From the NCBI GenBank assembly GCA_015069565.1, contig SVIJ01000014.1, positions 1-36,170 on the forward strand: a DNA stretch of 36,170 nucleotides, written 5' to 3'. Positions within the stretch are counted from its first letter, which is position 1; each line of letters opens with the position of its first letter. Of the stretch, positions 2,535 through 26,755 are shown one piece after another. The stretch is from Clostridiales bacterium. GTDB taxonomy: Bacteria; Bacillota; Clostridia; Christensenellales; Borkfalkiaceae. The notes under the pieces are model-generated. The model did no database searches. It had not been told where the DNA came from and saw only the letters and a list, made by a program, of their open reading frames with translations. The position numbers and the translations under genes were made by a program.

Positions 2535-4061
2535 ATGAAGTATATTTTGACGAATGAACAAATGCGTGAAGCGGACGCGTTCACCATCGAAACCTTGGGC
2601 GTTCCGTCCTTGGAGCTGATGGAGCGCGCGGGTATCGCGTTAAAAAAAGAAGCGGAGCGGCTTGCTCCGACGGGGAAGATTTTGATCGTTTGCGGCGGTG
2701 GCAACAACGGCGGCGACGGCTTTGTTTGCGGTAGACATTTACTGCTTGAAGGCAGAGAAACGGACGCCGTATTTTTTGCGGAAAAGCGCACGCACGAGTG
2801 TGAAGTCAACCTGTCCGAGTTTATGCTGAATAACGGCCGTATTTACGATGAGATTCCCGATAGCGAGTATGCGCTTGTGATCGACTGTCTTTTCGGTACG
2901 GGCTATTCCTATCGCGACGACGAGCGCACGGCTGCGGTGATTCGCAAGCTGAACACCTTGAAAAAGCGGGGCGCGAAGATTCTTTCTGCGGACATTCCTT
3001 CGGGGGTATGCGGCAATAGCGGCATTGCCAAGGGGGAAGCGGTGGATGCGGACGTCACCTTGTGCTTTGGCGAGATGAAAGGCGGCGTAGTTCTTTGCGA
3101 TGGGCTCGATTATGCAGGGGAAGTGCGCCGCGCGGACATCGGTATTGCTTTGCCTGCCTTTGATGCGGACGGAAACGGCTATGCGCGCCTTGCGGAAGAA
3201 GACGAGATTTGTCAGCTTTTGCCAAAACGTAAACGAAATACCCACAAAGGCAATTACGGCAGAGCAACGGTGGTTGCAGGTAGTGAAAAATATACGGGCG
3301 CGGCGTATTTGTCTACGCTTGCGGCGGTTCGTAGCGGCGCAGGGTATACGACGTTGATGCTGCCTAAAAACCTATTCCCGATTTTTGCGCTCAAAATTCC
3401 CGAAGCCTTGCTTTCTATCACAAACGAAGGGGGCAGGTACGCGTTTAAGGAAGAAATTATGGCAAAAATCCCCAAGGGTGCGGTGGCGTACGGCATGGGG
3501 ATGGACGTTTCCGAAGACGTTGCGATGGGGGCGGAATATTTACTCTCTCATCACGAAGGGATACTCGTGCTGGATGCAGACGCGCTCAATTCCTTGGCAG
3601 AATACCGCTTTGAAAACCTTTCCGCGCTATTCCAAAACGCGACGTGTGAAGTGGTGCTCACCCCCCATCCGAGAGAGTTTGCACGGCTTATCGGCGTGGA
3701 CTGCTCGCAGGTGGTGGAAAACGCCCTTTCCCTTTCGCAGAAGTATGCGAAGGAGTGGGGCTGTACCGTACTTTTGAAGGGCGCGGCAACGATTGTCACC
3801 GACGGCAAGCGGACGTTGATTACGAATCGCGGTACGGCAGGTCAAGCCAAAGGGGGAAGCGGCGACGTGCTTTCGGGGGTGATTGCAGGGCTTTGCGCTT
3901 CTGCGCTCGGTAGCTTTGAAGGGGCGCTTACGGCGGCATACCTTTGCGGCGTCGCGGCGGAGCTTGCCACGGCGGATATCGGGGAATATTCCCTGACGGC
4001 AACGGACGTAATCTCGTACCTGGGTAAGGCATTTCTACAATTACAAGATTTTGAGAATTGA
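2535..4061 (+). CDS. nnr: Bifunctional NAD(P)H-hydrate epimerase / ADP-dependent NAD(P)H-hydrate dehydratase
   Basis: 508 aa, a fusion of the two nicotinamide-nucleotide repair enzymes. The N-terminal YjeF_N epimerase domain (about residues 1-215) has GGGNNGGDGFVCGR from residue 54 and an IDCLFGTG segment. The C-terminal carbohydrate-kinase-like domain (about 225-505) has the TPHPREFARL segment and KGGSGDVLSG near residue 440. Together they convert damaged hydrated NAD(P)HX back to NAD(P)H. AAGGAAG supports the start. The TGA stop lies inside the first linker of hairpin array 1, so the repeat begins at the very end of the gene. Confidence 0.93.
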   Translation: MKYILTNEQMREADAFTIETLGVPSLELMERAGIALKKEAERLAPTGKILIVCGGGNNGGDGFVCGRHLLLEGRETDAVFFAEKRTHECEVNLSEFMLNNGRIYDEIPDSEYALVIDCLFGTGYSYRDDERTAAVIRKLNTLKKRGAKILSADIPSGVCGNSGIAKGEAVDADVTLCFGEMKGGVVLCDGLDYAGEVRRADIGIALPAFDADGNGYARLAEEDEICQLLPKRKRNTHKGNYGRATVVAGSEKYTGAAYLSTLAAVRSGAGYTTLMLPKNLFPIFALKIPEALLSITNEGGRYAFKEEIMAKIPKGAVAYGMGMDVSEDVAMGAEYLLSHHEGILVLDADALNSLAEYRFENLSALFQNATCEVVLTPHPREFARLIGVDCSQVVENALSLSQKYAKEWGCTVLLKGAATIVTDGKRTLITNRGTAGQAKGGSGDVLSGVIAGLCASALGSFEGALTAAYLCGVAAELATADIGEYSLTATDVISYLGKAFLQLQDFEN

Positions 4062-4266
4062 ACCCTTTGGGTTCGTGAATTGCATATTTCATATGCGTGA
4101 ATTGAACGCAGGGAGCGTTCGTGAATAGATTGCTGTTGCAATCGTTGTGGGGGAATTTATTTTAGCTATAACGCAAGGCTTTGCCTTGCAATTCACGTTT
4201 TCGAGAGAAAACAATTCTTGGAGCGTATGCGAGAATTCACGATTTGCGTTTGGCAAATCAATTCAC
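4053..4266. repeat. Hairpin array 1: four left linkers, centre, four right linkers
   Basis: Left linkers related to GTGAATTG start at 4053, 4075, 4097 and 4121; right linkers related to CAATTCAC start at 4189, 4212, 4233 and 4259, giving a period of about 21-26 nt. Between them are small hairpins with unrelated stems: AACCC/GGGTT, CATAT/ATATG, AACGC/GCGTT, ATTGC/GCAAT, then CAAGG/CCTTG, GTTTTC/GAAAAC, a weak CTTG/CGAG and GATTTG/CAAATC. The centre (about 4142-4173) is a CGTT/AACG-bounded loop with GTGGGGGAATTTAT. The array fills the entire space between two convergent genes. No transposase or target-site duplication is visible. Function unknown. Confidence 0.88.
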
Positions 4267-23277: not shown

Positions 23278-24054
23278 ATGTATTTAGTAGAGTTTAGATT
23301 TACGCCGAAGAAAGAGCTTCGCGCGCAGGAAGATATAGCAACGAGCCGCCTTTCTTGGTTCTTAATGCTGTGCAAATATAGCGGTCAAATCATCGGTACG
23401 ATAGAACCGAACACAAACGCTGTATACGTTTGCAACGTGTACACGCCGATGAGAGATTCCTTGGATAAAAAGAACGATCTGCCGTTCGTTGCTAAGGAAA
23501 GAGCAAACGTGGAAGAGTTTTTTGAGATTTCTTACCGCGTTTTGGTGGAAGGGGATGACGGTTGCGCGTGCGAAAGTCGAAGCGGTGTCGAGATGTGGAC
23601 GGAAAAAGGCGCGATGGAAAGTCCGTTTGTCTGTCTTTCCTGTGGGAAGAGAATCCCTTTGTACCGTTTGCCGATGTTTGAAGATGGAAGCTTTGATAAT
23701 ACGCTTGCTTGGCAGGAAGCCTTTTGTTCGATGATAGCGCTCAATGATACCGTGTATTACGACGAGTTTACGTCGAACGAGCTTCTTTTACATACGTCCA
23801 AACTCAATCAGCGTGGATACGACGTTGCAAAACGGTTGAAGGCACGTATGGATTGCCCAGTGTATTACCGCTTGCACGAGATTGACGAAACGGAAAAATT
23901 CCAGCCACGTGAATGGGTGGGGAACAACAACGTTCGCGTTTGTCCCGCTTGCCAAAAGGTGATGCGGCGGTTGCCGATTGCGGACGAAGAAACGATAGAA
24001 GTTTGCGACGAATGCGGCTATTCTTCGGCGGAAGAAACGGAAGAAATCTGGTAA
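23278..24054 (+). CDS. Zinc-ribbon protein of unknown function (possibly DUF2310)
   Basis: 258 aa. It shows Cys pairs suited to zinc binding: C119/C122 in CLSCGK, and a C-terminal ribbon with C222/C225 (CPAC) and C243/C246 (CDEC). The N-terminal 90 residues form a beta-rich domain and the middle is helical. The overall layout resembles the DUF2310 proteins described as zinc-ribbon and possibly nucleic-acid binding; this match is from memory and not certain. GAAGGTAGGCAGGT precedes the ATG. Hairpin array 2 begins immediately after its stop codon. Confidence 0.7.
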   Translation: MYLVEFRFTPKKELRAQEDIATSRLSWFLMLCKYSGQIIGTIEPNTNAVYVCNVYTPMRDSLDKKNDLPFVAKERANVEEFFEISYRVLVEGDDGCACESRSGVEMWTEKGAMESPFVCLSCGKRIPLYRLPMFEDGSFDNTLAWQEAFCSMIALNDTVYYDEFTSNELLLHTSKLNQRGYDVAKRLKARMDCPVYYRLHEIDETEKFQPREWVGNNNVRVCPACQKVMRRLPIADEETIEVCDECGYSSAEETEEIW

Positions 24055-24055
24055 G

Positions 24056-24307
24056 AGAAACGCCTGGCGTTTCCGTGAAAAGAAACCTATGGTTTCGTGA
24101 ATTGCGACGTTTGTCGCATGAATTGTTTTCTGTCGAAAACGTGAATTGATTGCAGAAAGCAATCGTTATGGGGGAATTTATATACAGCCTTAACGCAAAC
24201 CTATGGTTTGCAATTCACGCCGTTAGGCGATTCACGCATACTGGGTATGCAATTCACGACGGCAAAGCCGTCAATTCACTTTATCGCAGTCCTGCGATAA
24301 GCTTTTT
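24056..24307. repeat. Hairpin array 2: four left linkers, centre, four right linkers
   Basis: Left linkers (GTGAATTG and variants) at 24075, 24097, 24118 and 24141; right linkers (CAATTCAC and variants) at 24211, 24228, 24250 and 24272; period mostly 21-23 nt. Hairpins in order: GAAACGC/GCGTTTC, AAACC/GGTTT, CGAC/GTCG, TTTTC/GAAAA, ATTGC/GCAAT, centre CGTTA...TAACG with ATGGGGGAATTTAT (24163-24194), CAAAC/GTTTG, CC/GG, CATAC/GTATG, ACGGC/GCCGT. The last is a strong 9-bp stem TTATCGCAG/CTGCGATAA (24281-24300) followed by GCTTTTT, probably a terminator. Same design as array 1 with different stems. Confidence 0.9.
24281..24307 (+). terminator. Terminator-like hairpin closing array 2
   Basis: Perfect stem TTATCGCAG (24281-24289) / CTGCGATAA (24292-24300), two-base loop, then GCTTTTT. 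It would end transcripts coming from the zinc-ribbon gene through the array. Confidence 0.65.
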
Positions 24308-24329
24308 ACGGAATATTTTTGTTTGCCTA

Positions 24330-24358
24330 TTGACAAACGGGCGCAAACTGTGTATAAT
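24330..24358 (+). promoter_or_regulatory. Consensus sigma-A promoter upstream of the Abi locus RNA
   Basis: Perfect TTGACA (24330-24335), 17-nt spacer, perfect TATAAT (24353-24358). Expected transcription start near 24365. Confidence 0.88.
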
Positions 24359-24364
24359 ATATAA

Positions 24365-24431
24365 GAAGGATTTCCGTGGCGTTTTTGCATTCGGGAACGG
24401 CGGGAAGTTCATTTATGGACTTCCCATTTTT
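24365..24431 (+). ncRNA. Probable structured small RNA of the Abi_2 gene (abiF-motif-like candidate)
   Basis: The region between a consensus promoter and the Abi gene is about 67 nt and ends in an intrinsic terminator: GGGAAGTTC (24402-24410) / GGACTTCCC (24417-24425) followed by T5. A 5' CCGT/ACGG helix (24374-24377 / 24397-24400) is possible, and GAAC (24395-24398) could alternatively pair with GTTC (24407-24410), competing with the terminator. Known AbiF-type HEPN genes are often preceded by a conserved structured RNA (the abiF RNA motif); whether this sequence fits that covariance model cannot be tested here. It may act as a separate RNA, as an attenuator, or both. Confidence 0.55.
24402..24431 (+). 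terminator. Terminator/attenuator just before the Abi_2 gene
   Basis: 9-bp stem (one G-T pair) with a six-base loop and T5, ending 12 nt before the Abi start codon; full expression of Abi would need read-through. Confidence 0.75.
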
Positions 24432-24443
24432 GATAGGGGTCGT

Positions 24444-25415
24444 ATGAGTAAGACAAATATCGGCAAAAAAGTATATTTCAGCAGCGAACAGCAGATTGAA
24501 AAGCTGAAACGGGACGGGTTGATTATTCCCGATGAAAAGCACGCAAAGCGGCGCTTGAAGTGGGAAGGGTACTACAACTTTGCCGTCGGCTATAACCGCT
24601 TGTTCAAAGAAAAAAATAAGCGCTATCGAAAGGGCGTGACCTTCGCGCATATCGAAGCGCTGTTTGATTTTGATAAACGCCTGCGCGAAATCGTTTACGA
24701 AGCCACGCAACAGGTGGAATGCAACATCAAAGAGATGCTTTCCGACGTTTTTTCCAAGTACTACGGCGTGGATGAGCGGCTGTATTTGCAGGAAAAGAAC
24801 TTTACGCCCGATCCCAAGGAAGCGCAAAACGTGCGCTGGATCATCGGTACGTGTAAGGCGGCGCTCACCGCGTCCTGTAAGGCAGGGGCGGCTTGCTATC
24901 GCGACTACGTGGCTTACTATGCAAAGACGTATAAGCACGTTCCTTTTTGGGCGCTTATACGCACGCTGACGTTTGGCAATACGTCTAAGTTCTTGCGGCT
25001 GTTAAAGCCTGCGGACGGGCAGGAGATTGCAAGGGAATACGGCGTTTCATATAACGAGCTTTGCAACCTGATGGAGCTTGCCGTTTGCTTCCGCAATATC
25101 GCCGCGCACGGCGAGCGAACGTACTGCGCGCATTTGCCTACGGTGCGGCTGACGCAGGGTTTGCCTGTTTTGCCGAAGTTGCAACTCCCGAAACGGCAAG
25201 ACGGTACACCCATGTACGGAAATAACGACTGTATGGCACTGTTTGTGGCGCTCAAATATTTACTGCCTGCCGCCGCCTTTAACGACTATTTTTCGCGGCT
25301 TAGGCTGGAAATAGAAAACTTGGAAAAGGCGTTGCCGTCCTTTGCATTCCATCGCGTACTTTATGAAATGGGCTTGCAGGGGAGCTGGAAAAAACTGGAT
25401 ATAATGGGTAAATAA
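24444..25415 (+). CDS. Abi_2 (AbiD/AbiF-like) HEPN abortive-infection protein
   Basis: 323 aa from the ATG at 24444, with AGGGGT upstream. Family order is clear: KRRLKWEGYYNFAVGY near residue 36-50, an IEALFDFDKRLREIVYEA helix, VECNIKEML, then PFWALIRTLTFGNTSKFL, and the HEPN catalytic motif R217-x4-H222 in CFRNIAAHGER. HEPN proteins of this group are RNases or predicted RNases that cause growth arrest on phage infection, and related proteins are considered relatives of Cas13. It stands alone behind a terminated leader RNA and next to hairpin array 2. An open frame continues upstream through the array but is not likely to be translated. Confidence 0.88.
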   Translation: MSKTNIGKKVYFSSEQQIEKLKRDGLIIPDEKHAKRRLKWEGYYNFAVGYNRLFKEKNKRYRKGVTFAHIEALFDFDKRLREIVYEATQQVECNIKEMLSDVFSKYYGVDERLYLQEKNFTPDPKEAQNVRWIIGTCKAALTASCKAGAACYRDYVAYYAKTYKHVPFWALIRTLTFGNTSKFLRLLKPADGQEIAREYGVSYNELCNLMELAVCFRNIAAHGERTYCAHLPTVRLTQGLPVLPKLQLPKRQDGTPMYGNNDCMALFVALKYLLPAAAFNDYFSRLRLEIENLEKALPSFAFHRVLYEMGLQGSWKKLDIMGK

Positions 25416-26607: not shown

Positions 26608-26755
26608 GGCGGGAGCGGCGCAAAGCAGTATTCATTTTTTCCGCAACGACGGCTTTGCCGTCAATTCACGATTGCGGAAGCAATCAATTCACGCCCGATA
26701 GGGCAATTCACGAAAACGAAGTTTTCAATTCACCCCCCCCCGTAAAGCGGTGGGC
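26604..26755. repeat. Hairpin array 3: half-element with four linkers
   Basis: CAATTCAC linkers start at 26662, 26685, 26704 and 26726. Hairpins ACGGC/GCCGT, ATTGC/GCAAT, CCC/GGG and AAAAC/GTTTT precede each linker. Read on the minus strand this is a left half, ending in CGTTGCGG, which can pair with CCGCAA across 37 nt (26604-26609 / 26641-26646) in place of the usual centre. The outer end runs into C9 (26733-26741) and a terminator-like CGGTGGGCTTTT. The opposite half is absent. Confidence 0.85.

Follow-up and report, generated by a model that had tools for sequence, protein, structure and literature searches.

What kind of element is built of constant short linkers that alternate with hairpins which all differ in sequence and yet remain self-complementary? 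The question is raised by an array at positions 24056-24307 of the window (the whole 36,170-nt stretch of DNA analysed here), which belongs to a fragmented genome from a genus of Clostridia (G000; 1.27 Mb in 56 contigs, 83% complete). Parsing of the sequence gives four linkers on each side of a centre, with variable, self-complementary stems, as described in the initial annotation. The observation is confirmed, and it is larger than first described.

The element in the window

The features of the window that are relevant here are the following:

24057..24300, unstranded: full 4+4 element with an extra hairpin at both outer ends (from the parse, and from the fold compared with shuffles)
24075..24147, plus strand: left half, with linkers at 24075-24081, 24097-24103, 24118-24124 and 24141-24147
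24082-24096, 24104-24117 and 24125-24140: hairpins of the left half, folding strand minus by the loop rule
24148..24211, unstranded: middle section, made of hp4 (24148-24164), the centre GTTATGGGGGAATTTATATACAGCCTTAAC (24165-24194) and hp5 (24195-24211)
24212..24279, plus strand: right half, with linkers at 24212-24218, 24229-24235, 24251-24257 and 24273-24279
24219-24228, 24236-24250 and 24258-24272: hairpins of the right half, folding strand plus by the loop rule
4053..4266, unstranded: second full 4+4 element, with left linkers starting at 4053, 4075, 4097 and 4121, right linkers starting at 4190, 4213, 4234 and 4260, and the centre at 4144-4172
26663..26733, plus strand: lone right-type half-array with four AATTCAC linkers
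23278..24054, plus strand: flanking gene of the DUF2310 family
24420..25415, plus strand: flanking gene of the Abi_2 family

The linkers of the first element are, in order, GTGAAAA, GTGAATT, ATGAATT and GTGAATT on the left and AATTCAC, GATTCAC, AATTCAC and AATTCAC on the right, three of the eight being substituted. The linker is a constant unit, as first proposed, but its length is 7 nt (GTGAATT): the eighth base it had been credited with already belongs to the stem that follows. The element at 4053-4266 has the announced plan, and its hp4 (GATTGC..GCAATC) and centre (GTTRTGGGGGAATTTAT..TAAC) are identical to those of the array at 24056-24307, but the palindrome of its hp7 (GGAGCGTATGCGAG) is imperfect. 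The two elements have a much better fold energy than their shuffles, with z values of -7.03 and -6.09. The proposed period of about 22 nt, or two turns of B-DNA, does not hold: the hairpin segments measure 9-21 nt and the spacing varies with hairpin length, hence there is no B-DNA phasing. In the Rfam check suggested in the initial annotation, no family reached its gathering threshold anywhere in the window.

The region 24310-25415 of the window contains a promoter-like sequence (TTGACA-N17-TATAAT) between the element and the Abi_2 gene. A hairpin followed by a T-run (GGGAAGTTCATTTATGGACTTCCC) lies in the same interval and is also kept before the Abi_2 gene of G028; this stretch may be a small RNA that accompanies the Abi gene. 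Pairs of a small RNA and an Abi gene exist.

A family of four-linker half-arrays

A half consists of a leader and four 7-nt linkers which alternate with flush hairpins, and two halves usually face each other. The linker is GTGAATT, with the variants GCGATAT, GTGAAAT and GTGAAGT; GCGATAT forms four-linker halves of its own, which are at times joined to GTGAATT halves. Exact GTGAATTG-N8-22-GTGAATTG pairs occur 144 times in G000, compared to 0 for the reversed pattern. A linker-agnostic search found 58 arrays in 205 kb of G000, and five dinucleotide shuffles gave none; by width, it gave 48 arrays at 9 and none at 5, 6 or 8, the width-9 arrays being due to the constant bases that adjoin the linker. 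On the outer side of the first linker, the adjoining base is A in 61% of the 139 halves, and in 74% of the 57 that come from G000. The distances that separate adjacent perfect hairpins show a peak at 7 nt in G000, and the peak is clear in G035, G022, G051, G028, G014 and G036; there is none in G006 and G017, and in G008 nearly as many distances measure 6 nt.

In ten genomes, 197 half-arrays were parsed, with four linkers in 160, three in 24 and five to seven in 13. Further copies therefore keep the linker number, as the initial annotation had anticipated; the fraction with four linkers is 57/65 in G000 and 12/12 in G028. Seventy facing pairs form full elements (47 of them 4+4) and 57 halves are lone, several of which retain a recognisable remnant of the opposite half. 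G051 represents a second family within the order; the parse of two of its stretches yielded lone halves only, partly arranged in tandem, behind a related tail (GTTGCGGTAGGGATAGA). The final parser treats G.A and C.T mismatches alike. A first parse (172 halves, of which 139 with four linkers, 46 full elements and 80 lone halves) missed the halves with tandem-G.A stems; it underlies the stem vocabulary, the GNNA third base, the energy comparison, the target-duplication test, the 97.3% pairing and the loops of distinct hairpins reported below.

It had also been proposed that left and right linkers pair with each other to form a ladder. In a loose parse of 15 elements, a few of which were included twice, none of 44 linker changes is matched by a compensating change in the nested partner, and nested partners pair at 6.27 of 7 positions compared to 6.25 of 7 for non-partners. 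The two sides often differ: in the G022 elements L218, L219 and L222 the left linker is GTGAATT and the right one ATTTCAC, which gives a T-T mismatch per rung, and the L016 and L026 elements combine one half of the GTGAATT type with one of the ATATCGC type. These data, the lone halves included, do not support the ladder, which was rejected.

Other repeats were observed along with the family. Interspersed repeats of other kinds (e.g., GTAGGGCGGGGGCTTGCTCCCGCC and GATCCTTCGGCTACGCTCAGGATGACA) lie beside or within arrays in L014, L017, L018, L019 and L033. At L016:16083 and L019:6393, in the same genome, hairpins are spaced by another 7-nt linker, GTTGTAT. The Clostridia MAG RGIG4006 contains one-directional arrays of eight to ten GTGAATT linkers with repeating hairpins (L082:2585-2773), unlike the four.

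Exact GTGAATTG pairs are present in 15 of 61 genomes: G000, 13 of 36 other members of the genus (in one of which, G010, the insert of the single pair is not a hairpin) and G051. Order-wide, 9 of 297 genomes match the three-linker pattern, three of them by inserts that are not hairpins, and the hairpin-bearing matches are G000 and five genomes of one other family. The pheS-pheT locus was read in 30 of the 55 genomes with a match: the gap of G000 is 325 nt long and holds a full element, and no array is found in any of the 29 other genomes read, where the gaps measure 11-156 nt. At lepA-hemW (30 loci read, from 57 genomes), G000 has a full element, G028 has a remnant with two linkers and 27 loci have no array in the gap, some with stray linker-like heptamers; in G076, lepA was not found upstream and the array finder scores putative arrays in the locus. 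The DUF2310 and Abi_2 genes of G028 are neighbours as in the window, with no element between them; besides G000, the DUF2310 gene is found among the 57 genomes only in G028 and, weakly, in G029.

Some gaps are shared. In a sample of genomes chosen as array-bearing, 39 of 173 reciprocal-best pairs flank arrays in both genomes, compared to 28.1 expected, and in 31 of the 39 the array is on the same side of the gene. Arrays in the same gap in several species, somewhat more frequent than independence would give, speak against simple mobility; they could be the result of hot spots, old insertions or a kept function. Phages are also concerned: arrays occur in 4 of 175 virus-collection stretches with linker patterns, two of these virus contigs encode terminase, portal and capsid proteins (PHROGs), and four-linker arrays sit between the terminase, portal and capsid genes of phage contigs. 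Among related phage loci, 4 of 80 have arrays (the two query contigs included); for genome-contig stretches with linker patterns, the figure is 6 of 119 among the matches listed.

The copies might also be DNA sites that serve the host. A protein of the nucleoid, of replication or of repair would bind them, and they would be retained for their part in organising or protecting the chromosome, a role suggested earlier for certain REP and BIME repeats. The count of four, the clean hairpins of most copies and the gaps common to species suggest that many copies are indeed kept. However, the number of exact linker pairs ranges from 144 to none within one genus, insertions differ between species, and phages have elements too; on balance, we consider this explanation unlikely.

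Stem covariation and the strand that folds

Stems elsewhere in the family stay self-complementary while their sequence changes (ten genomes), in agreement with what was first claimed for the window. In 458 segments between successive exact linkers from these ten genomes, taken without any demand for pairing, the outer four positions are 91.0% Watson-Crick, and all four outer pairs are Watson-Crick in 348 segments. When the 3' arms are dealt anew 200 times, the mean is 36.9% and the maximum 39.6%. The 411 parsed hairpins, which have 101 different 5-nt arms, show 97.3% pairing, a value which is partly reached by construction because the parser tolerates no more than a single mismatch among the four outer pairs. 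The stems do differ and remain self-complementary, but they are not free: G000 has a stem vocabulary with slot preferences.

Orthologous gaps illustrate this variation. Between thrS and leuS, G000 and G028 both have an element at the matching spot, with compensated changes in the outer hairpins (GATTTGT/ACAAATC in G000, GATTTGC/GCAAATC in G028) and in the inner ones (GCAAGGT/ACCTTGC and GCAAGGC/GCCTTGC, respectively), and with interior hairpins swapped for other palindromes. In the ilvC-ilvD gap, the elements of G006 and G022 have the same plan and different hairpins, and start three or four bases past the same stop codon.

Two side observations concern the same pair of genomes. A conserved stretch with CGCGGTTCCACC lies between the element and leuS in both (L022 ~2950-3160 and L195 ~690-880); it resembles a T-box leader that would belong to thrS, on the opposite strand. 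In addition, an array with GTGAAGT linkers in G028 (L193:255-322) and one with GTGAATT linkers in G000 (L024:2476-2542) both follow what is apparently the same ABC-transporter gene.

The AATTCAC strand is used here as the reading strand; in either half, its 5' to 3' direction points away from the centre. On this strand, the closing pair is C-G in 405 of 488 hairpins (T-A in 50, G-C in 18 and A-T in 15). The 288 triloops are GNA (109), ANA (78), TNT (42), TNC (17) or other (42), and the 156 tetraloops are GNNA (100) or other (56), never TNNC. Control hairpins from the same stretches, outside the arrays, have closing pairs C-G (608), T-A (542), A-T (445) and G-C (395) and show no loop bias (66 GNNA versus 68 TNNC, 91 GNA versus 91 TNC). 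If only distinct hairpins are counted, the closing pair is pyrimidine-purine in 225/233, and 42 of 76 tetraloops are GNNA, none TNNC.

The mismatches have a polarity as well. Tandem mismatches are of the 5'-GA/3'-AG kind 34 times and of any other kind at most once (e.g., TGAGC-GTTA-GCGAA, the outer pairs varying between genomes); the opposite strand would show them as C.T mismatches. Mostly because of these tandems, stem-internal mismatches on the AATTCAC strand are 71 G.A versus 4 C.T. A strict count of wobbles on this strand gives 25 G.T versus 9 A.C; a first count, which included the loop-adjacent pairs, gave 30 versus 34 (linker sense), and 22 versus 14 on the mRNA strand, where the gene calls are noisy. 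The constraint on folding is strand-specific, and loops and mismatches tell which strand folds.

Palindromes may also be neutral products of template switching, which copies one arm of a hairpin onto the other and would require no function. Such copying would account for stems that change as complementary pairs and for the different hairpin modules that species have at the same gap. It leaves the fixed linker sequence, the fixed number and the strand-specific loop and G.A signature unexplained, and it would make perfect the very stems that carry the 34 tandem GA/AG mismatches, which already strain it. This explanation thus appears very unlikely.

The loops and mismatches point to DNA more than to RNA. 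Tandem G.A pairs are stable in DNA, as are triloops with a sheared A.A pair, and RNA GNRA loops prefer a purine at the third base. In the present GNNA loops this base is T in 33 cases, A in 21, C in 18 and G in 4, i.e., a purine in 25/76. GNA and GNNA loops with any middle base form extraordinarily stable, nuclease-resistant DNA mini-hairpins, according to an excerpt of PMC4686876. For the chromosome ends of Streptomyces, part of PMC7205883 describes palindromes that have GNA loops and show compensatory changes.

The alternative is a cluster of hairpins in the transcript, which would affect mRNA stability, processing or protein binding in operons. Full elements do occur within operons, in gaps such as pheS-pheT and ilvC-ilvD, and would be transcribed; one strand is favoured, and the tandem G.A pairs and the excess of G.T (25 to 9) would suit RNA. 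However, the mRNA strand is not preferred: the lone halves in co-directional gaps are sense in 13 cases and antisense in 17, and in the L406 phage module the favoured strand is antisense to the genes in all three halves. Energies separate DNA from RNA weakly, the AATTCAC strand being better in 55 cases, worse in 25 and equal in 242 with RNA rules, and better in 67, worse in 6 and equal in 249 with DNA rules. DNA is favoured because of the known stability of the DNA loops, the non-purine third base of GNNA and the lack of preference for the mRNA strand. The RNA explanation keeps some weight because of the G.T excess and the positions inside operons, and we regard it as improbable. The observations fit hairpins that fold as single-stranded DNA.

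A possible mobile element and its relation to known systems

The reading we favour, with evenly balanced confidence, is that of a non-autonomous, REPIN-like mobile DNA element with an architecture of its own, which is moved in trans as a single strand. It rests on the dispersed copies, the count of four, the compensatory stem changes, the strand-specific loops and mismatches, the lack of elements at corresponding sites of relatives and the arrays in gaps between phage genes. The unit is the half: an AT-rich leader (outward, ending ...CCRYAAC) and then four modules, each made of a hairpin and a heptamer. Since the halves are usually back to back, this unit is present once per strand, 5' to 3' outward from the centre. 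When a strand becomes single (e.g., as lagging-strand template), the hairpins would fold with their unusually stable DNA loops, and the four heptamers would remain accessible as single strands. A protein acting in trans might read the hairpin feet and the heptamers, and cut, move or copy the element, which would go into AT-rich gaps between genes. Hairpin modules could be swapped between copies, which would produce a species-specific stem vocabulary without altering the linkers or their number.

No target duplication was found in 45 full elements, whose end repeats are no longer than with shuffled partners, and no excision or mobile intermediate was seen. The recurrent gene neighbours of the arrays are housekeeping genes (presumably including ilvD and gyrA, recognised from their sequence), and neither these neighbours nor the Y1_Tnp profile (PF01797) yielded a candidate for the mobilising enzyme. 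The profile has matches in 21 of 57 genomes of the genus, with one weak match in G000 and none in the frames of G035, the array-richest relative; Of the genomes that have three or more linker pairs, 5 of 13 contain Y1, versus 8 of 24 without. Y1 genes are therefore not associated with arrays, and a RAYT was rejected as the mobiliser. None of the genes listed for L014 and L016-L019 was recognised as an autonomous partner; the ends are inverted.

A bolder version of the mobile-element reading, which we hold to be rather unlikely, is that the arrays represent a new class of single-strand-DNA mobile elements in gut Clostridia and some phages, defined by four modules and by exchangeable hairpin cassettes that obey a DNA folding code (C-GNA-G or C-GNNA-G, tandem sheared G.A), and served by an enzyme unlike the known Y1 transposases. 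If the elements are mobile, this would point to a single-strand DNA enzyme, not described before, in gut Clostridia and their phages.

No matching design was found in the databases and open-access literature searched. A CRISPR array was rejected, since the inserts are self-complementary and recur between copies and are not unrelated, foreign-derived spacers. The elements resemble MITEs in being short, non-coding, intergenic and present in many copies with inverted ends; unlike MITEs, they have hairpins with exchangeable stems, and no target duplication was detected. Streptomyces-type telomeres lie at the ends of linear replicons, whereas the present elements are dispersed within contigs, with many internal copies, and have regular 7-nt linkers. 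The likeness, from the excerpt of PMC7205883, lies in the series of palindromes with GNA loops (sheared G.A), which are found here too, in the compensatory changes and in the outward 5' to 3' strand. At the telomeres, this orientation is that of the 3' overhang. Organelle repeats of chlamydomonadalean algae also interleave abundant palindromes with constant short repeats, but the part of PMC8928634 considered here describes one dominant palindrome, repeated, with no count of four and no paired halves.

The ends of IS200/IS605 elements have strand-specific subterminal hairpins which the transposase reads as single-stranded DNA (PMC6006769, in part); they have one small hairpin per end and a tetranucleotide guide, whereas there are four modules per half here, both strands are symmetric and no gene lies inside. 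REPIN, REP and BIME repeats, which go with RAYT (TnpA-REP) transposases, are dispersed extragenic palindromes with inverted doublets and compensatory changes, thought to move as single-stranded DNA (excerpts of PMC3116915 and PMC6006769). Inverted doublets (the 70 facing pairs) and compensatory stem changes (the covariation) are found here as well. An REP hairpin carries a GT[AG]G tetranucleotide at its 5' foot, as stated in part of PMC6006769. This foot is absent here, the foot bases being AATT, ATAT, AAAT or AAGT, and TCAC or TCGC on the other strand. The elements are not classed as REPINs, given that they lack the GT[AG]G foot and are not linked to Y1 transposase genes. Where a REPIN repeats one REP, they combine at least eight hairpins, 7-nt linkers, four per half, and variable stems, in an abundant and accurately built repeat whose folding constraint is legible base by base. 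With this design, the long-standing question of how such repeats stay palindromic could be put to a direct test, using short oligonucleotides and the genomes of strains.
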